Translations under genes and position numbers: made by a program
Notes under the pieces: model-generated
The model's database searches: none
Told to the model about the DNA's origin: nothing
Seen by the model: the letters and a program-made list of their open reading frames with translations, nothing else
NCBI GenBank assembly: GCA_029432815.1
Contig: JAROBA010000003.1
Location: 1 to 64,000 of the forward strand
Reading direction: 5' to 3'
Origin: Pontiellaceae bacterium B1224
GTDB lineage: Bacteria; Verrucomicrobiota; Kiritimatiellia; Kiritimatiellales; Pontiellaceae
DNA length: 64,000 bases
Shown here: piece after piece, positions 13,644 through 19,816 of the stretch
Numbering within the stretch: the stretch's first letter is position 1
Layout of the letters: each line of letters opens with the position of its first letter

Positions 13644-13697
13644 GTTGGGCCGGCTGTCCCAGCCGTCCGCGGCTTGCTGAGGACAGCAAGCCCTACC
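13641..13697. repeat. dispersed inverted repeat overlapping the aroG-type stop codon
   Basis: It runs from 'taggttgggccggctg' to 'gacagcaagccctacc'; the ends are complementary (gtaGGGC / GCCCtac), with internal G/C-rich arms. It fills the gap between two convergent genes and supplies the last codons and TAG of the DAHP synthase gene. It resembles the 'gtagggc...gccctac' repeats seen at 17546-17642 and 18187-18316, but only at its ends. Confidence 0.5.
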
Positions 13698-14718
13698 CTA
13701 AGAGCATCTTCTCTGTGGTTTCCCAGTCGATGCACTGATCGGTGATGGACAGGCCGTATTTCAAATCGCCGGAAATCTTCTGATTACCTTCTTCAATGAA
13801 GCTTTCAATCATCACGCCGGTAATCGGGCAGTCGTCCTTGGCGCGTTGTTCAAGGATGCTTTCCCACACCTTGACCTGATTTTGGGCCACTTTGCTGGCA
13901 TTCGCATGCGAACAGTCCACCATCAACGATTTTTCAAGGCCGGCGGCTTCCAGTTTGCAGGCCGCGTAGGTGACTTCCGGATATTGGAAATTAGGCTGTT
14001 TGCCCCCGCGCAGTACCAGATGGGTGTTCGGGTTGCCGGAGGTTTTCACCATGGCGGAATGACCATCCTGGTCAATCCCGAGAAAACTGTGCGCGTTGCT
14101 GGCGGACTCAATGGCGTTGATGGCAATTTCAATATTTCCGTCGGTGGCATTCTTGAAGCCGACCGGCATGGAGAGCCCGCTGGACATTTCGCGATGCGTC
14201 TGCGATTCCGTGGTACGGGCGCCGATGGCAGACCAGCTGACCAGATCGGCTGTGTATTGCGGAACGATCGGGTCCAAAAATTCGGTCGCGATCGGAAGGC
14301 CGAGCTTGGCGATATCCAGCAACAGTTTACGGGCGGCATAAAGGCCGTGTTCCATATCGCAGGAATTATCCAGTTTTGGATCGTTAATGAATCCCTTCCA
14401 GCCAATCGTGGTTCGCGGTTTTTCAAAATAGACGCGCATCACAATAAAGTAACGGTCTTTTACCTGTTCTGCGATAGCTGCCAGACGCTTGGCATAGTCC
14501 AGCGCTGCTTCAGGATCGTGGATGGAGCAGGGGCCGATCACGATCAGCAGGCGGTCATCACGCAGGTGGATGATATCACGGACGGTATCGCGGTCGGCCA
14601 GCACTTTGTTGGTCAGCTCAATGCCCAGCGGCAGCTCTTCTTTGAGCTTGGCCGGGGTGACCAGCTTCTTCAGTTCTTTTACGCGCAAATCTTCAGTCAG
14701 ATGGATGTCATTAGTCAT
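13693..14718 (-). CDS. aroG: 3-deoxy-7-phosphoheptulonate synthase, class I (AroF/G/H type)
   Basis: A 341-residue enzyme joining phosphoenolpyruvate and erythrose 4-phosphate in the first step of the shikimate pathway. Family motifs are all present: IGPCSIHDPEAALDYA (about 60-75), VYFEKPRTTIGWKG (about 97-110), AIGARTTESQTHREMSSGLSMPVGFKN (about 165-191) and the metal site VDCSHANASK (about 270). The N-terminal segment is the type that makes E. coli paralogues sensitive to Tyr, Phe or Trp, but I cannot tell which effector applies. Its C-terminus (MLLG) is encoded at the edge of a dispersed repeat. A degenerate palindrome lies at 13975. Which of aroF, aroG or aroH is the nearest relative is not certain. 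Confidence 0.93.
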   Translation of the reverse strand: MTNDIHLTEDLRVKELKKLVTPAKLKEELPLGIELTNKVLADRDTVRDIIHLRDDRLLIVIGPCSIHDPEAALDYAKRLAAIAEQVKDRYFIVMRVYFEKPRTTIGWKGFINDPKLDNSCDMEHGLYAARKLLLDIAKLGLPIATEFLDPIVPQYTADLVSWSAIGARTTESQTHREMSSGLSMPVGFKNATDGNIEIAINAIESASNAHSFLGIDQDGHSAMVKTSGNPNTHLVLRGGKQPNFQYPEVTYAACKLEAAGLEKSLMVDCSHANASKVAQNQVKVWESILEQRAKDDCPITGVMIESFIEEGNQKISGDLKYGLSITDQCIDWETTEKMLLG

Positions 14719-14744: not shown

Positions 14745-16511
14745 TCAGTTTTTGGAAGTATCTTCTTGTTTGCTTTTTATGATGCGTTCCTGCCGGTCAC
14801 GCAGGATTTCCTTATTGGTCCAGACGCCGTAAGGATCTCGATAGGGAAGGCCGCGCGTGGTTTCGCGGATCATTTTTATTTCATGGTCCGGTAACGGAAT
14901 TGGAATGTCCTTTTCCTGCATGGCGGCGATGGTTCCGCCGCGCTGCCGTCCAACCGGATCGGTTTCGCCCACAAAGAAGCCGGCCTCCATCAAACCCGCG
15001 CGAACCGGGATCGCAGCGCAGTAGGTCAGCAGGACGGCGTCCGGTTTCATAACCGCTTTCAGCTTTCGAAAGAAATCAACCGTCCAGAGCTCGCTGTTGC
15101 GCTGGGTGGAAAAGGCGTCGAGAAAGACGAGGTCGAAGGTGGACGGGTTGAGTTTTGAAATCGTATAGCGCGCATCACCCCACAGAATCTGGATTGCCGA
15201 TTGCCGATTGCTGATTGCCAATTGATTTTCGTAGAGGTCTGACAGAATTTTTTTCCAATCATTGGAATCGGTTTCCAAGGTCTGGATATTTTTCGAGGCA
15301 GCGCCAACGACCCGGCGGTCCATTTCAAGGGCGGTGACCTGAAGATTGTTCGAGGAAGCAGATACAGTTTCCAGCGCAGTAAGGCTGTTGTATCCCAACC
15401 CAAAGCAAACATCCAGTAGTTGGATGTCTCCCAAAGTCAGCCGTTCTTTCAGTCTTCCTGGTACCAGATATTTTTCTTCGGCTTCCAGTCTTGCCCCGGC
15501 AGGTGTGTGGTAATGCTCTTTGTAGTCTTCATTCCAAAAAGTTACAGACCCATCTTCAGTCTCAACTGTTTTTAGATTTCCCTCAGTCTGCCCATCTCTC
15601 GGTCGCCCCCTCTCAAAAAGATCCCCTTGCCGCCATTCACGACAGGTCATTTGCTGAATGACATAATCCTTAAACTGGCCTTTAGCCATATGCCATCTGG
15701 GAGCAATCAGTTCTTCGTCCAGTGTGTCGGTGGTGAGCCGCATGATTGGGATGTTCGGCGGCATACGGCGGATGAAGTCCATCAGATGTTCGGCAAAATC
15801 TTGCTCCATTAATACGGGCAGAGGAGTGAGAGCATGCTCCAATGCGAGTGTGGTTCCTCTTTCAATATGCAGGTTATGGATCTTAACGGCGTCAATTGGG
15901 AGGGCGGCCAGCGTGTCGGCGGTTTGCTGAAAGTCCTCGGCGGTTTCGCCGGGCAGGCCGAGAATGGCGTGTGCCGCGACTTTGATTCCAAGCTCGTGCA
16001 GTTTTTTAATGGCTTCTGCGCTGGAGGCCCAGTCGTGACCGCGGTTAATCCGATCGAGCGTACGGTCGTGAACGGTTTGCACGCCCAGCTCCACCCAGAC
16101 CTCGATATGTTTGTTCAGCTCTACCAGAAAGTCGTAGGCCTGTGGAGTCAGGCAGTCCGGGCGGGTGCCGATACTGACGGCGGTAAAATCGAATGCATCC
16201 AATAAGGCCAGATATTTCGGTTGCTGGTTTTTTCCGAAGGTTGCGGAATAGGCCTGAATGTAGGCCATGTATTTCTTGGCGCCATAGCGATCCCGAGCAA
16301 AGCGGATCGCATCCTTCATTTGCTCTTCAACCGAGGATGCGCCGATGGTCTGTACGGCGGCGGAACCGCGCACGTTACAGAACGTGCACCCGCCGGAACC
16401 ATCGAGTTCCCGGTTTGGACAGCCCGTATTAAAATCGATCGGCACACGAAAGAGCGCATCACCATAGCGCTCCTTCATGTAGTCTTTGTATTGGAGATAG
16501 GGTTTCTTCAC
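14745..16511 (-). CDS. fusion: TIGR01212/YhcC-YtqA radical SAM protein + MnmC-type methyltransferase
   Basis: A 588-residue two-domain protein. Residues about 1-300 are a radical SAM enzyme of the YhcC/YtqA family related to Elp3: the cluster motif is C-x10-C-x2-C (CPNRELDGSGGCTFC, about 31-45), followed by ELGVQT and ILGLPGETAEDF. After a charged linker (about 305-325), residues about 326-555 form a class I methyltransferase of the MnmC(M)/DUF752 type: FWNEDYKEHYHTPAG, the SAM loop DVCFGLGYNS, FLDAFSTQRNSELW and TYCAAIPVRAGLMEAGF. MnmC(M) methylates nm5U34 in tRNA, so the fusion suggests that the radical SAM half acts on wobble uridine too. Residues about 428-440 are encoded by a dispersed repeat. 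One exact palindrome lies at 15253. Confidence 0.85.
   Translation of the reverse strand: MKKPYLQYKDYMKERYGDALFRVPIDFNTGCPNRELDGSGGCTFCNVRGSAAVQTIGASSVEEQMKDAIRFARDRYGAKKYMAYIQAYSATFGKNQQPKYLALLDAFDFTAVSIGTRPDCLTPQAYDFLVELNKHIEVWVELGVQTVHDRTLDRINRGHDWASSAEAIKKLHELGIKVAAHAILGLPGETAEDFQQTADTLAALPIDAVKIHNLHIERGTTLALEHALTPLPVLMEQDFAEHLMDFIRRMPPNIPIMRLTTDTLDEELIAPRWHMAKGQFKDYVIQQMTCREWRQGDLFERGRPRDGQTEGNLKTVETEDGSVTFWNEDYKEHYHTPAGARLEAEEKYLVPGRLKERLTLGDIQLLDVCFGLGYNSLTALETVSASSNNLQVTALEMDRRVVGAASKNIQTLETDSNDWKKILSDLYENQLAISNRQSAIQILWGDARYTISKLNPSTFDLVFLDAFSTQRNSELWTVDFFRKLKAVMKPDAVLLTYCAAIPVRAGLMEAGFFVGETDPVGRQRGGTIAAMQEKDIPIPLPDHEIKMIRETTRGLPYRDPYGVWTNKEILRDRQERIIKSKQEDTSKN
15189..15229. repeat. 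dispersed 'attgccgattgctgattg' repeat inside a coding region
   Basis: A short iterated stretch, attgccgattgccgattgc and then tgattgccaattg, lies in frame within the methyltransferase half of the fusion gene and encodes the low-complexity peptide NQLAISNRQSAIQ. Related sequence occurs near 3016 and around 23140. Confidence 0.6.
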
Positions 16512-16655: not shown

Positions 16656-17525
16656 ATGAATGACTTTTTTAAAAGAATATTGCTGATTGTCGGAATGGTC
16701 GGTGCTGCGGGTCTCTCCGAGGCGGAGCTTCTTTATTCAGATTCGTTTGACGGGGGACTCACCAATTGGGTCGGGGAAGGGCCGACGCCCTCCATCGTGG
16801 ATGGTCAGTTGGATTTTAATGTGATCGACAGTGCCGGCACGATCTGGCTGAACCGGAAGTGGTCGGGTAATATTCAAATTGAATACGATGTGTTGATGCT
16901 GGGGTATCGAGATTTGAACGTTTTCTGGATGGCGACCGATCCGAATAACCCGGATGATTTTTTTGCGGCGGATCGATCCGATGGTGACTTCGGGAACTAT
17001 AACTCCATGGACTTATATTATGTAGGATATGGTGGAAACAGAAATGAGACTACGCGTGCGCGGAAATATTTCGACAATACACGGCCCATTCTTGAGGAGT
17101 ACACAACTCAGCCCTTTTTGCTGAATGGCGAGAATTCAACGTATCGCGTCCGTCTGGTTCAAGACGAGGGGGTGGCTGAATATTGGATCGACCAGAATGA
17201 CGGGCTTGGCATGCAGCAGGTATGGAGCTATGACGATAACACCGATCCCGATGGCAACGGTGATCCGTATACCGAAGGATATTTCGGGATCCGCGGAGCC
17301 AAAACCCATTATCGCATCGATAACGTAACCGTGACCGCCATCCCGGAGCCCAGCACTCTGCCTTTGATCGGGTTGGGAATATTCGGGGTCTACTTCTTCA
17401 GAGGAAAACGACTGAATCGAATCCGTAAAAATCAAACCGTAAAGTGTGACGTGGCACCGCAGTGTCCTTTGGCTTTTCAGAATGCGGAACAAAACGAAAC
17501 GTCACAGAAGAACGTGTTTTATTAA
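16656..17525 (+). CDS. PEP-CTERM anchored surface protein with an extra C-terminal tail
   Basis: A 289-residue exported protein. It has a signal peptide (about residues 1-23), a beta-rich body resembling a LamG/concanavalin-type fold (about 25-225), and then a canonical PEP-CTERM sorting signal: IPEPST at about 231-236, a hydrophobic helix, and basic residues (RGKRLNRIRK). Such signals are recognised by EpsH-type exosortases and mark proteins for the outer surface, often with exopolysaccharide. The unusual point is about 35 further residues after the basic cluster (two Cys, Asn/Gln-rich), where the family normally ends. It may be a read-through extension after loss of the original stop. A GAGGTAG ribosome site precedes ATG. 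No exosortase gene is in the window. Confidence 0.85.
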   Translation: MNDFFKRILLIVGMVGAAGLSEAELLYSDSFDGGLTNWVGEGPTPSIVDGQLDFNVIDSAGTIWLNRKWSGNIQIEYDVLMLGYRDLNVFWMATDPNNPDDFFAADRSDGDFGNYNSMDLYYVGYGGNRNETTRARKYFDNTRPILEEYTTQPFLLNGENSTYRVRLVQDEGVAEYWIDQNDGLGMQQVWSYDDNTDPDGNGDPYTEGYFGIRGAKTHYRIDNVTVTAIPEPSTLPLIGLGIFGVYFFRGKRLNRIRKNQTVKCDVAPQCPLAFQNAEQNETSQKNVFY

Positions 17526-17545
17526 TGGCCAGTTATTGGTCTAAA

Positions 17546-17642
17546 GTTGAAGGGCTGAATCGGTTGTAGAACGATACCTTTCAGCCGTGCGGCGGAGAGT
17601 GGCGGGAAGGATTCGCGAGCTCAACCGTTCCCACCCTACAAA
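17546..17642. repeat. REP-like element, left of the transposase gene
   Basis: It begins GTTGAAGGGCTGAA, has an internal 'cctttcagccgtgcggcgg' block and ends CTCAACCGTTCCCACCCTACAA. The same blocks occur in the same order and orientation at 18187-18316, on the other side of the RAYT gene. Confidence 0.75.
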
Positions 17643-17643
17643 T

Positions 17644-18183
17644 TTACAATCGTTTAAGAATCGCTTCAGGTGTCCCGAGGTACGGATAAGCCTCGGGCAC
17701 TGAACATAACCCCGCCCGCACCGGATTCATTTCCGTGTAACACCATTTGTCGGTGAGGCTTTCGTTGTGACGAAGCAATCGATCGAAAAACTCGCGTTGC
17801 CAGATGCCGCCCTCAATTCCTGCCCGATTCAGGCGTTGCTTGCTGGACGATTTCCAGCGTTGCATCAGCTTCGAGAGCTTTTGTTCGCGTTCCGTCATCG
17901 GCGCGGTGAGTAGATGCACGTGATCCGGCATGAAGCAGATCTGAGGGATGTTCCAATCGGTTGCGGCAGCGGATTTGATCAGCGATTCAAGTGTGATTTT
18001 TATAGCTGTGTTGTTGGTGAAGATATGCCGACGTTCAGCGCAGCAGGTGGTTACGAAATAGATGACGCTTTGGTTGTCGGGAATCCAGACCGGAATCCGT
18101 TTCAGGTGTTTGCGATCTGGGAGGCCGTTGGACATGAATGAATCATGGGTCGAAGGGCAGGACGGGTCAAGATTGCAGGGCAC
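17644..18183 (-). CDS. REP-associated tyrosine transposase (RAYT, Y1/HUH type)
   Basis: A 179-residue IS200-like single-strand transposase. The HUH motif is in CFMPDHVHLL (about residues 91-100), and the tyrosine helix is in KWCYTEMNPVRAGL (about 145-158), the hallmark ending of the RAYT family. Such enzymes are thought to mobilise REP palindromes rather than a classical insertion sequence. Here matching REP-like elements flank the gene directly on both sides (17546-17642 and 18187-18316), a typical 'REPtron'. An internal ATG (about residue 17, 18135) may be the true start, because the first 16 residues look random. The reading frame is intact, so it may be active. Confidence 0.88.
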   Translation of the reverse strand: MPCNLDPSCPSTHDSFMSNGLPDRKHLKRIPVWIPDNQSVIYFVTTCCAERRHIFTNNTAIKITLESLIKSAAATDWNIPQICFMPDHVHLLTAPMTEREQKLSKLMQRWKSSSKQRLNRAGIEGGIWQREFFDRLLRHNESLTDKWCYTEMNPVRAGLCSVPEAYPYLGTPEAILKRL

Positions 18184-18322: not shown

Positions 18323-19642
18323 CTACCGATCAAAAAGCAGGCGTTGGCCGCGGAGGGCGTCGTTGACCTGTCCGTTCTGATAAGCAATCTGTCCGTTCAC
18401 CAGCGTGGCGGCGATGGACGATTTGAAGGTGACGCCTTCAAAGGGCGACCAGCCGCATTTGTATTCAATGTTTTCTTTGGTGACGGTGGACGGCGCTTCA
18501 GTATCGATCAGGGTGAGGTCCGCCCAGTAGCCCTCGCGGATGAAGCCGCGTTCCAAGCATTGGAAAATTCGTGCGGGGTTATGCGCCGTCTTTTCGGCCA
18601 CCATTTCGAGCGGGAACAATTCCACGGCGGTCGTCATGGCGCTTTGGATGACCGGAAGGCCGGAGGGGGCCGAGCCGTAGTTATTCAGCTTTTCTTCATA
18701 GAGATGTGGCGCGTGGTCGGTGCCGATCGTATCAATGACGCCATCAATGACCGCCTGACGGATGGCGGCGCGGTCGGCGGGTGTTTTGATGGACGGGTTG
18801 CATTTAATGAACGCGCCTTTTTCGTCGTAGTCATCGGACGAAAACCACAGCATATGCGGGCAGGCTTCGCCGGTGATTTTTTTGCCTGAAACGGGACCAG
18901 CCTTGAACAGATCGAGTTCTTTGGCGGTGGTCAGATGCAGCACGTGGATCTGGGAGTTATATTTCGTGGCGAGCTCAACGGCGAGGGCGGTGGAGCGGTA
19001 GCATGCTTCCTCGGAACGGATTTTCCAATGTTCGGAAAAGGGGATGGCTTCGCCGTACTTTTCGCGGGCGGCCTTTTCGTTTTCACGAATGGTGTTGGTG
19101 TCTTCGCAGTGTAGGGAAATCGGGACTTCGATTTTTCCGAAAATGTTTTCCAGCTGTTCGGTGCGGTCGACGAGGAGTCCGCCGGTAGAGGCGCCCATAA
19201 ACAGTTTCACGCCGCAGATGGATTTTGGGTCCATCGCCAGCAGTTCGTCGATGTTGTTGTTGGATGCGCCGAGGTGGAAGGAATAGTTGGTGACACAGCG
19301 GGTGGCGGCCAGTGCAAATTTGTCTTCGATGACCGCATTGGTGATGGCAGCGGGTTTGGTGTTGGGCATCTCCATAATAGAGGTGACGCCGCCGGCTACG
19401 GCGGCGCGGGTTTCGGAATGGAGGGTTGCTTTCTGTTCAAGGCCCGGTTCGCGACAGTGTACGTGACAGTCGATCATACCCGGAAGCAATGCTTTCCCGG
19501 CGGCATCGATGACGGTATCGGCCGCCTGATCAGTCAGGCTGGAGTCTATTTTTTCGATTCGCCCGTTTTTAATGAAAACATCAGCGGGGCGGGTTTCACC
19601 CTCGTTCACGAGATTGGCATTGGTAAGCAGTATTGTTTGCAT
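18323..19642 (-). CDS. pyrC: dihydroorotase (class I, PyrC/PyrX type)
   Basis: A 439-residue amidohydrolase that closes carbamoyl-aspartate to dihydroorotate in pyrimidine synthesis. The metal motif is DCHVHCREPG (about residues 57-66), followed by EMPNTKPAA, HCED (about 177) and GTDHAPH (about 300), as in class I dihydroorotases. Related allantoinases share some of these motifs, but the REPG context and the presence of pyrE in the window favour dihydroorotase. The start at 19642 (MQTILLTNANLV) is used because the 12 extra residues of the longer frame lack support. One exact palindrome (18551, FQCLE) and one near copy (19023) lie inside. Confidence 0.9.
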   Translation of the reverse strand: MQTILLTNANLVNEGETRPADVFIKNGRIEKIDSSLTDQAADTVIDAAGKALLPGMIDCHVHCREPGLEQKATLHSETRAAVAGGVTSIMEMPNTKPAAITNAVIEDKFALAATRCVTNYSFHLGASNNNIDELLAMDPKSICGVKLFMGASTGGLLVDRTEQLENIFGKIEVPISLHCEDTNTIRENEKAAREKYGEAIPFSEHWKIRSEEACYRSTALAVELATKYNSQIHVLHLTTAKELDLFKAGPVSGKKITGEACPHMLWFSSDDYDEKGAFIKCNPSIKTPADRAAIRQAVIDGVIDTIGTDHAPHLYEEKLNNYGSAPSGLPVIQSAMTTAVELFPLEMVAEKTAHNPARIFQCLERGFIREGYWADLTLIDTEAPSTVTKENIEYKCGWSPFEGVTFKSSIAATLVNGQIAYQNGQVNDALRGQRLLFDR

Positions 19643-19816
19643 GCGGGGCAATCTATGCAAGCCGTTGCTTAGATGCAAGGAAGGGCAGAATAAAATAGAG
19701 TGGTATTATTTTCCATTTGGCACGAATCCTATCAGGAGCCGTGCAATGGCGGGGTTAAACCCTGAATCTGCTTAAAATCGAGGTAGATTTCGTCATTAAT
19801 CCGGTATTTGGAAAAT

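Follow-up and report, generated by a model that had tools for sequence, protein, structure and literature searches.

Architecture of the fusion gene

The window analyzed here is the 64,000-nucleotide stretch at positions 1 to 64,000 of contig JAROBA010000003.1 from Pontiellaceae bacterium B1224. An open reading frame for 588 amino acids on its minus strand joins, in frame, a radical SAM enzyme to an MnmC-type methyltransferase in one chain, as the initial annotation had read it without giving the strand. The features of the locus are as follows:

14745..16511, minus strand: mnmL-mnmC2 fusion gene, 588 amino acids, GTG start, stop codon at 14747-14745; frame kept in relatives
15612..16499, minus strand: radical SAM half, TIGR01212 (MnmL/YtqA) with PF16199 as C-terminal part, residues 5-300
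16377..16421, minus strand: C31-x10-C42-x2-C45, predicted [4Fe-4S] ligands, unchanged in every one of the 61 fused proteins compared
15564..15611, minus strand: linker, residues 301-316; its sequence and length vary, and model confidence is lowest here
14907..15563, minus strand: MnmC2-like methyltransferase half, residues 317-535 (start at about 317)
15387..15413, minus strand: SAM-binding motif DVCFGLGYN, residues 367-375, with G371 and G373 invariant
15084..15119, minus strand: DAFS(x5)ELW motif, residues 465-476; its counterpart in Aquifex MnmC2 is DAFSPYKNPELW
14748..14906, minus strand: C-terminal tail, residues 536-588, with D559 invariant; the tail is shared with Aquifex MnmC2
13693..14718, minus strand: DAHP-synthase-like gene, 26 bases downstream of the fusion gene and a syntenic neighbor in relatives
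18323..19678, minus strand: dihydroorotase-like gene; most relatives have it immediately upstream of the fusion gene

Both family assignments made earlier hold. Residues 5-300 score 254 bits against TIGR01212 (cut-off 180), which NCBIfam names “tRNA modification radical SAM protein MnmL/YtqA”, and the cysteines have the spacing that had been given. Weak matches to HemZ and coproporphyrinogen oxidase are also obtained in NCBIfam. In a fold search, the predicted radical SAM half was nearest to Elp3 proteins (structural Z about 18-24.5), Elp3 being another radical SAM enzyme that acts at C5 of wobble uridine U34.

Residues 428-531 match PF05430 (DUF752) at 93.6 bits, the Pfam gathering score being 22. 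The MnmC2 model NF033855 matches residues 327-526 at 107.7 bits, below its equivalog-domain cut-off of 136 (NCBIfam); due to this score, the half is termed MnmC2-like and a common function is inferred. The best solved relative is the DUF752 protein MnmC2 of Aquifex aeolicus (3vyw; E 4e-29, residues 310 to 561 aligned), on which the predicted methylase half superposes with Z 31.6 and rmsd 2.2 over 260 residues. The two have the fold, the DAFS..ELW motif and the C-terminal tail in common, whereas the Aquifex enzyme stands alone, without an attached MnmL. A Pfam scan of the fusion protein gave no PF06962 (MnmM) domain, and the FAD oxidase model TIGR03197 was absent among its best 25 family matches in NCBIfam.

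Sixty-one fused proteins, 34-84% identical to that of the window, were aligned; their methylase motifs are nearly invariant and their linkers variable. The two-domain model predicted from this set has pLDDT 92 and pTM 0.91, and is confident almost throughout. Two fused proteins (L129:445-2280, plus strand; L164:2369-4387, plus strand) retain the radical SAM cysteines and have lost DAFS..ELW from the methylase half, which suggests that methylation may have been lost in both.

The conserved neighbors, dihydroorotase-like and DAHP-synthase-like, were considered as a hint to function and are uninformative. Note that the dihydroorotase-like and fusion genes adjoin directly in most relatives, unlike in the window, where positions 16656-18183 between them hold a REP-type transposase-like open reading frame and the gene of a protein whose C-terminus is PEP-CTERM-like.

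Distribution and descent in Verrucomicrobiota

The fusion was sought in 387 genomes drawn from the phylum Verrucomicrobiota, a survey of the kind proposed in the initial annotation, and 75 of them carry the chain. It is further present in nine named genome records (one truncated by a contig end), including Pontiella sulfatireligans F21 and two isolates of Pontiellaceae; within the genus and family, it is missing only from a few fragmentary genomes. Because the same open-frame fusion recurs across so many genomes, it is real, and a frameshift or assembly error joining two genes is ruled out.

TIGR01212 was found in 95 of the 387 genomes, PF05430 in 121 with the threshold at E 0.001 (some 115 once marginal matches are set aside) and MnmM in 61. 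The first two coincide in 82 of the 95 TIGR01212 genomes, in one open frame in 75 and as separate genes in seven, and MnmM occurs in none of these 82. Fisher's exact p for the co-occurrence of TIGR01212 and PF05430 is 1.8e-42, a value inflated by common descent. Where the genes lie apart (family f18 and genomes G317 and G235), both are kept. The two halves of the fused proteins diverge in step (r 0.86 over 1830 pairs).

In a tree of TIGR01212 proteins, with E. coli YhcC as the reference, the radical SAM halves of the fused proteins all fall into a single group that also takes in 12 unfused proteins. A 100/100 branch parts this group from YhcC and a further eight unfused proteins; the YhcC branch is long and its exact placement unsure. 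Of the earlier label “YhcC/YtqA-type”, the family membership stands; “YhcC-type” was dropped because E. coli YhcC and the nearest TIGR01212 proteins make up a separate clade, across the 100/100 branch from the window's protein. The fusion helps to separate the MnmL clade from YhcC, both of which carry the TIGR01212 name. No clear PF05430 methylase is present in the eight genomes of the phylum that fall with YhcC (one marginal match, E 4e-4), and five of them have MnmM.

Several unfused MnmL proteins nest within the fused group, and a separate methylase gene is kept in 7 of the 12 genomes with unfused proteins, as is expected after fission. In the other five (MnmL at L092, L093, L094, L095 and L096; genomes G250, G302, G335, G352 and G158), neither a PF05430 nor a PF06962 methylase was found, and these genomes might stop at nm5U. 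The methylase halves of the fusion cluster away from bifunctional MnmC and from a set of TGT-fused methylases (see below), although the deepest split in this quick tree is weakly supported.

Proposed role at the wobble uridine

In the known pathway, MnmC converts cmnm5U to nm5U with FAD and nm5U to mnm5U with SAM (PMC3648344), and the methylase of B. subtilis is MnmM (PMC9976899). In a 2025 review (PMC12548931), MnmL is listed alongside MnmC under nm5s2U and MnmM under mnm5s2U, with reference to Jaroch et al. 2024; ytqA is also cited for the synthesis of mnm5s2U in an eLife paper (PMC12245174). Together with the NCBIfam name, these sources make the role of MnmL already known and the proposal of the initial annotation for it not new. 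What is added to the known pathway is the pairing of MnmL with an MnmC2-type methylase instead of MnmM. No description of this pairing was found in the literature searched, which did not take in Jaroch et al. 2024 or Kitamura et al. 2012; the abstract of the former reportedly mentions fusion proteins within the pathway.

In Bacillus subtilis and Streptococcus, ytqA is a single gene beside mnmM (the ytqA-ytqB operon in Bacillus). Those MnmL proteins and the one described here share TIGR01212 above its cut-off and, by inference, the same place in the mnm5s2U pathway; here, however, the methylase joined to MnmL belongs to an unrelated family, and the genome lacks mnmM. The bifunctional MnmC of E. 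coli is likewise a single chain for cmnm5U to nm5U and nm5U to mnm5U, the two steps assigned here to the fusion, but has an FAD oxidase C-terminal to its methylase where the fusion has a radical SAM enzyme N-terminal to it.

The genome from which the window comes (97% complete) has MnmE, MnmG and MnmA. A second PF05430 protein beyond the fusion, an MnmM (PF06962) and an MnmC oxidase domain (TIGR03197, at E 1e-8) were sought in it and not found; FAD oxidoreductases are present in it. The check proposed earlier, for mnmE and mnmG with a separate mnmC absent, thus came out positive, and with this gene content no candidate other than the fused protein was found for the conversion of cmnm5U to mnm5U.

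We consider it quite probable that the fusion protein completes the wobble-uridine modification started by MnmE-MnmG (and MnmA). MnmEG would make cmnm5(s2)U34. The MnmL half, with its [4Fe-4S] cluster and SAM, would generate a 5′-deoxyadenosyl radical that abstracts a hydrogen from the CH2 which cmnm5U owes to glycine; after a one-electron oxidation, hydrolysis of the imine would free the glycine-derived unit, probably glyoxylate, so that nm5U34 remains. With a second SAM, the amine would then be methylated by the MnmC2 half, giving mnm5U34. Both reactions are assigned from the families, and the detailed radical chemistry is our proposal.

This role is backed by the domains, the motifs, the fusion across many lineages, the gene content and the exclusion of MnmM. 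Fusion, co-occurrence and gene content likewise support the part that the initial annotation had given the radical SAM half in forming the aminomethyl group. Against the role stand the methylase score under the NF033855 cut-off, the five MnmL-clade genomes without either methylase family and the degraded methylase motifs of two fused genomes. Furthermore, MnmEG can produce nm5U directly from ammonium (PMC3936742), in which case the methylase alone could suffice.

The fusion bears on the product of MnmL. MnmL is consistently partnered by an nm5U methylase, MnmM-type in Bacillus and MnmC2-type here, which favors nm5U; if MnmL made mnm5U directly, such a methylase would not be needed. Pairing with an unrelated methylase, exclusive of MnmM, supports nm5U as the product, and the coupled chain argues that MnmL removes the carboxymethyl group rather than decarboxylating cmnm5U to mnm5U. 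Such a HemN-like decarboxylation, with the methylase half working in parallel on nothing but the ammonium-derived nm5U of MnmEG, seems unlikely. It has the appeal of one-step chemistry, the HemZ and coproporphyrinogen oxidase matches would fit it, and MnmL persists beside a degraded methylase in two genomes and without a methylase in five. Matches of the HemZ type are, however, common to many radical SAM families, MnmL has been assigned to nm5s2U in print, and an nm5U methylase is coupled in 82 of the 87 genomes with TIGR01212 off the YhcC side (not all of them placed in the tree).

It is also unlikely that the radical SAM half acts on another target and that the fusion merely joins two tRNA enzymes. 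The TIGR01212 family may cover more than one function: both YhcC and MnmC are present in E. coli, and since the two coexist, YhcC must have another target. The fused proteins and YhcC lie on opposite sides of the 100/100 branch, however, and a clear PF05430 methylase is lacking from all eight genomes of the phylum that group with YhcC, although with the long branch the placement of YhcC is unsure. Installation of the C5 group by the radical SAM half itself, without need for MnmEG, as the likeness to Elp3 (the best structural relative, Z about 18-24, and active at the same C5) might suggest, is highly improbable given MnmE and MnmG in the genome, about 18% identity to Elp3 and the missing Elp3 acetyltransferase half.

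The fusion offers a single protein in which the MnmL reaction can be tested. For annotation, a genome without the MnmC oxidase and MnmM need not be without mnm5U.

Mirror-image and TGT-linked methylases

Among 20 MnmM loci examined in the same phylum, nine have an MnmC1-like FAD oxidase beside or fused to MnmM:

L147:2047-3690, plus strand: MnmC1-like oxidase and MnmM fused
L139:2142-3818, plus strand: MnmC1-like oxidase and MnmM fused
L131, L132, L133, L134, L138, L143 and L145: MnmC1-like oxidase directly upstream of MnmM

In L147 both domains were confirmed (NCBIfam and Pfam), the oxidase scoring under its MnmC1 cut-off. This is the mirror arrangement of the MnmL-MnmC2 fusion: such pairs (L147, L139, L131, L132) are likewise fused or adjacent two-step units, inferred to serve the same modification, but the opposite family is chosen for both steps. 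It is fairly likely that the two reactions leading from cmnm5U34 to mnm5U34 behave as modules that can be exchanged (MnmL with an MnmC-type methylase, or an MnmC1-like FAD step with MnmM, each pair occurring as one chain) and that in Kiritimatiellales, as in many other lineages of the phylum, MnmL-MnmC2 alone forms mnm5U. On the genome data, the pairing of MnmL with an MnmC-type methylase appears to stand in for the usual enzymes across a large part of Verrucomicrobiota.

PF05430 frames of 640-760 amino acids were at first candidates for bifunctional MnmC, which is true for the three tested in family f57. Outside f57, each of the 17 loci fetched for a long PF05430 frame (about 675-760 amino acids in the region fetched) encodes a TGT followed by a C-terminal MnmC2-like methylase:

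L171-L182 and L186-L190 (e.g. L172:8716-10803, minus strand): TGT-MnmC2-like fusions in 17 Verrucomicrobiota genomes

The TGT part lies above the bacterial tRNA-guanine transglycosylase equivalog cut-off in three of three loci scanned. TGT inserts preQ1, an aminomethyl base, at tRNA position 34, and MnmC2 methylates an aminomethyl base at position 34; as both are tied to such a base, N-methylated preQ1 is the obvious guess. By this analogy, we hypothesize that the TGT-fused methylase may N-methylate the preQ1 aminomethyl group at that position. Nothing of the kind, as a nucleoside in tRNA, was found in the literature searched, and this fusion seems more novel than the MnmL-MnmC2 pairing. Its predicted model has pTM 0.56. 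Most TGT-fused methylases carry a DPFSxKTD..LW motif, and L126, L127 and L128 are unfused relatives of them.
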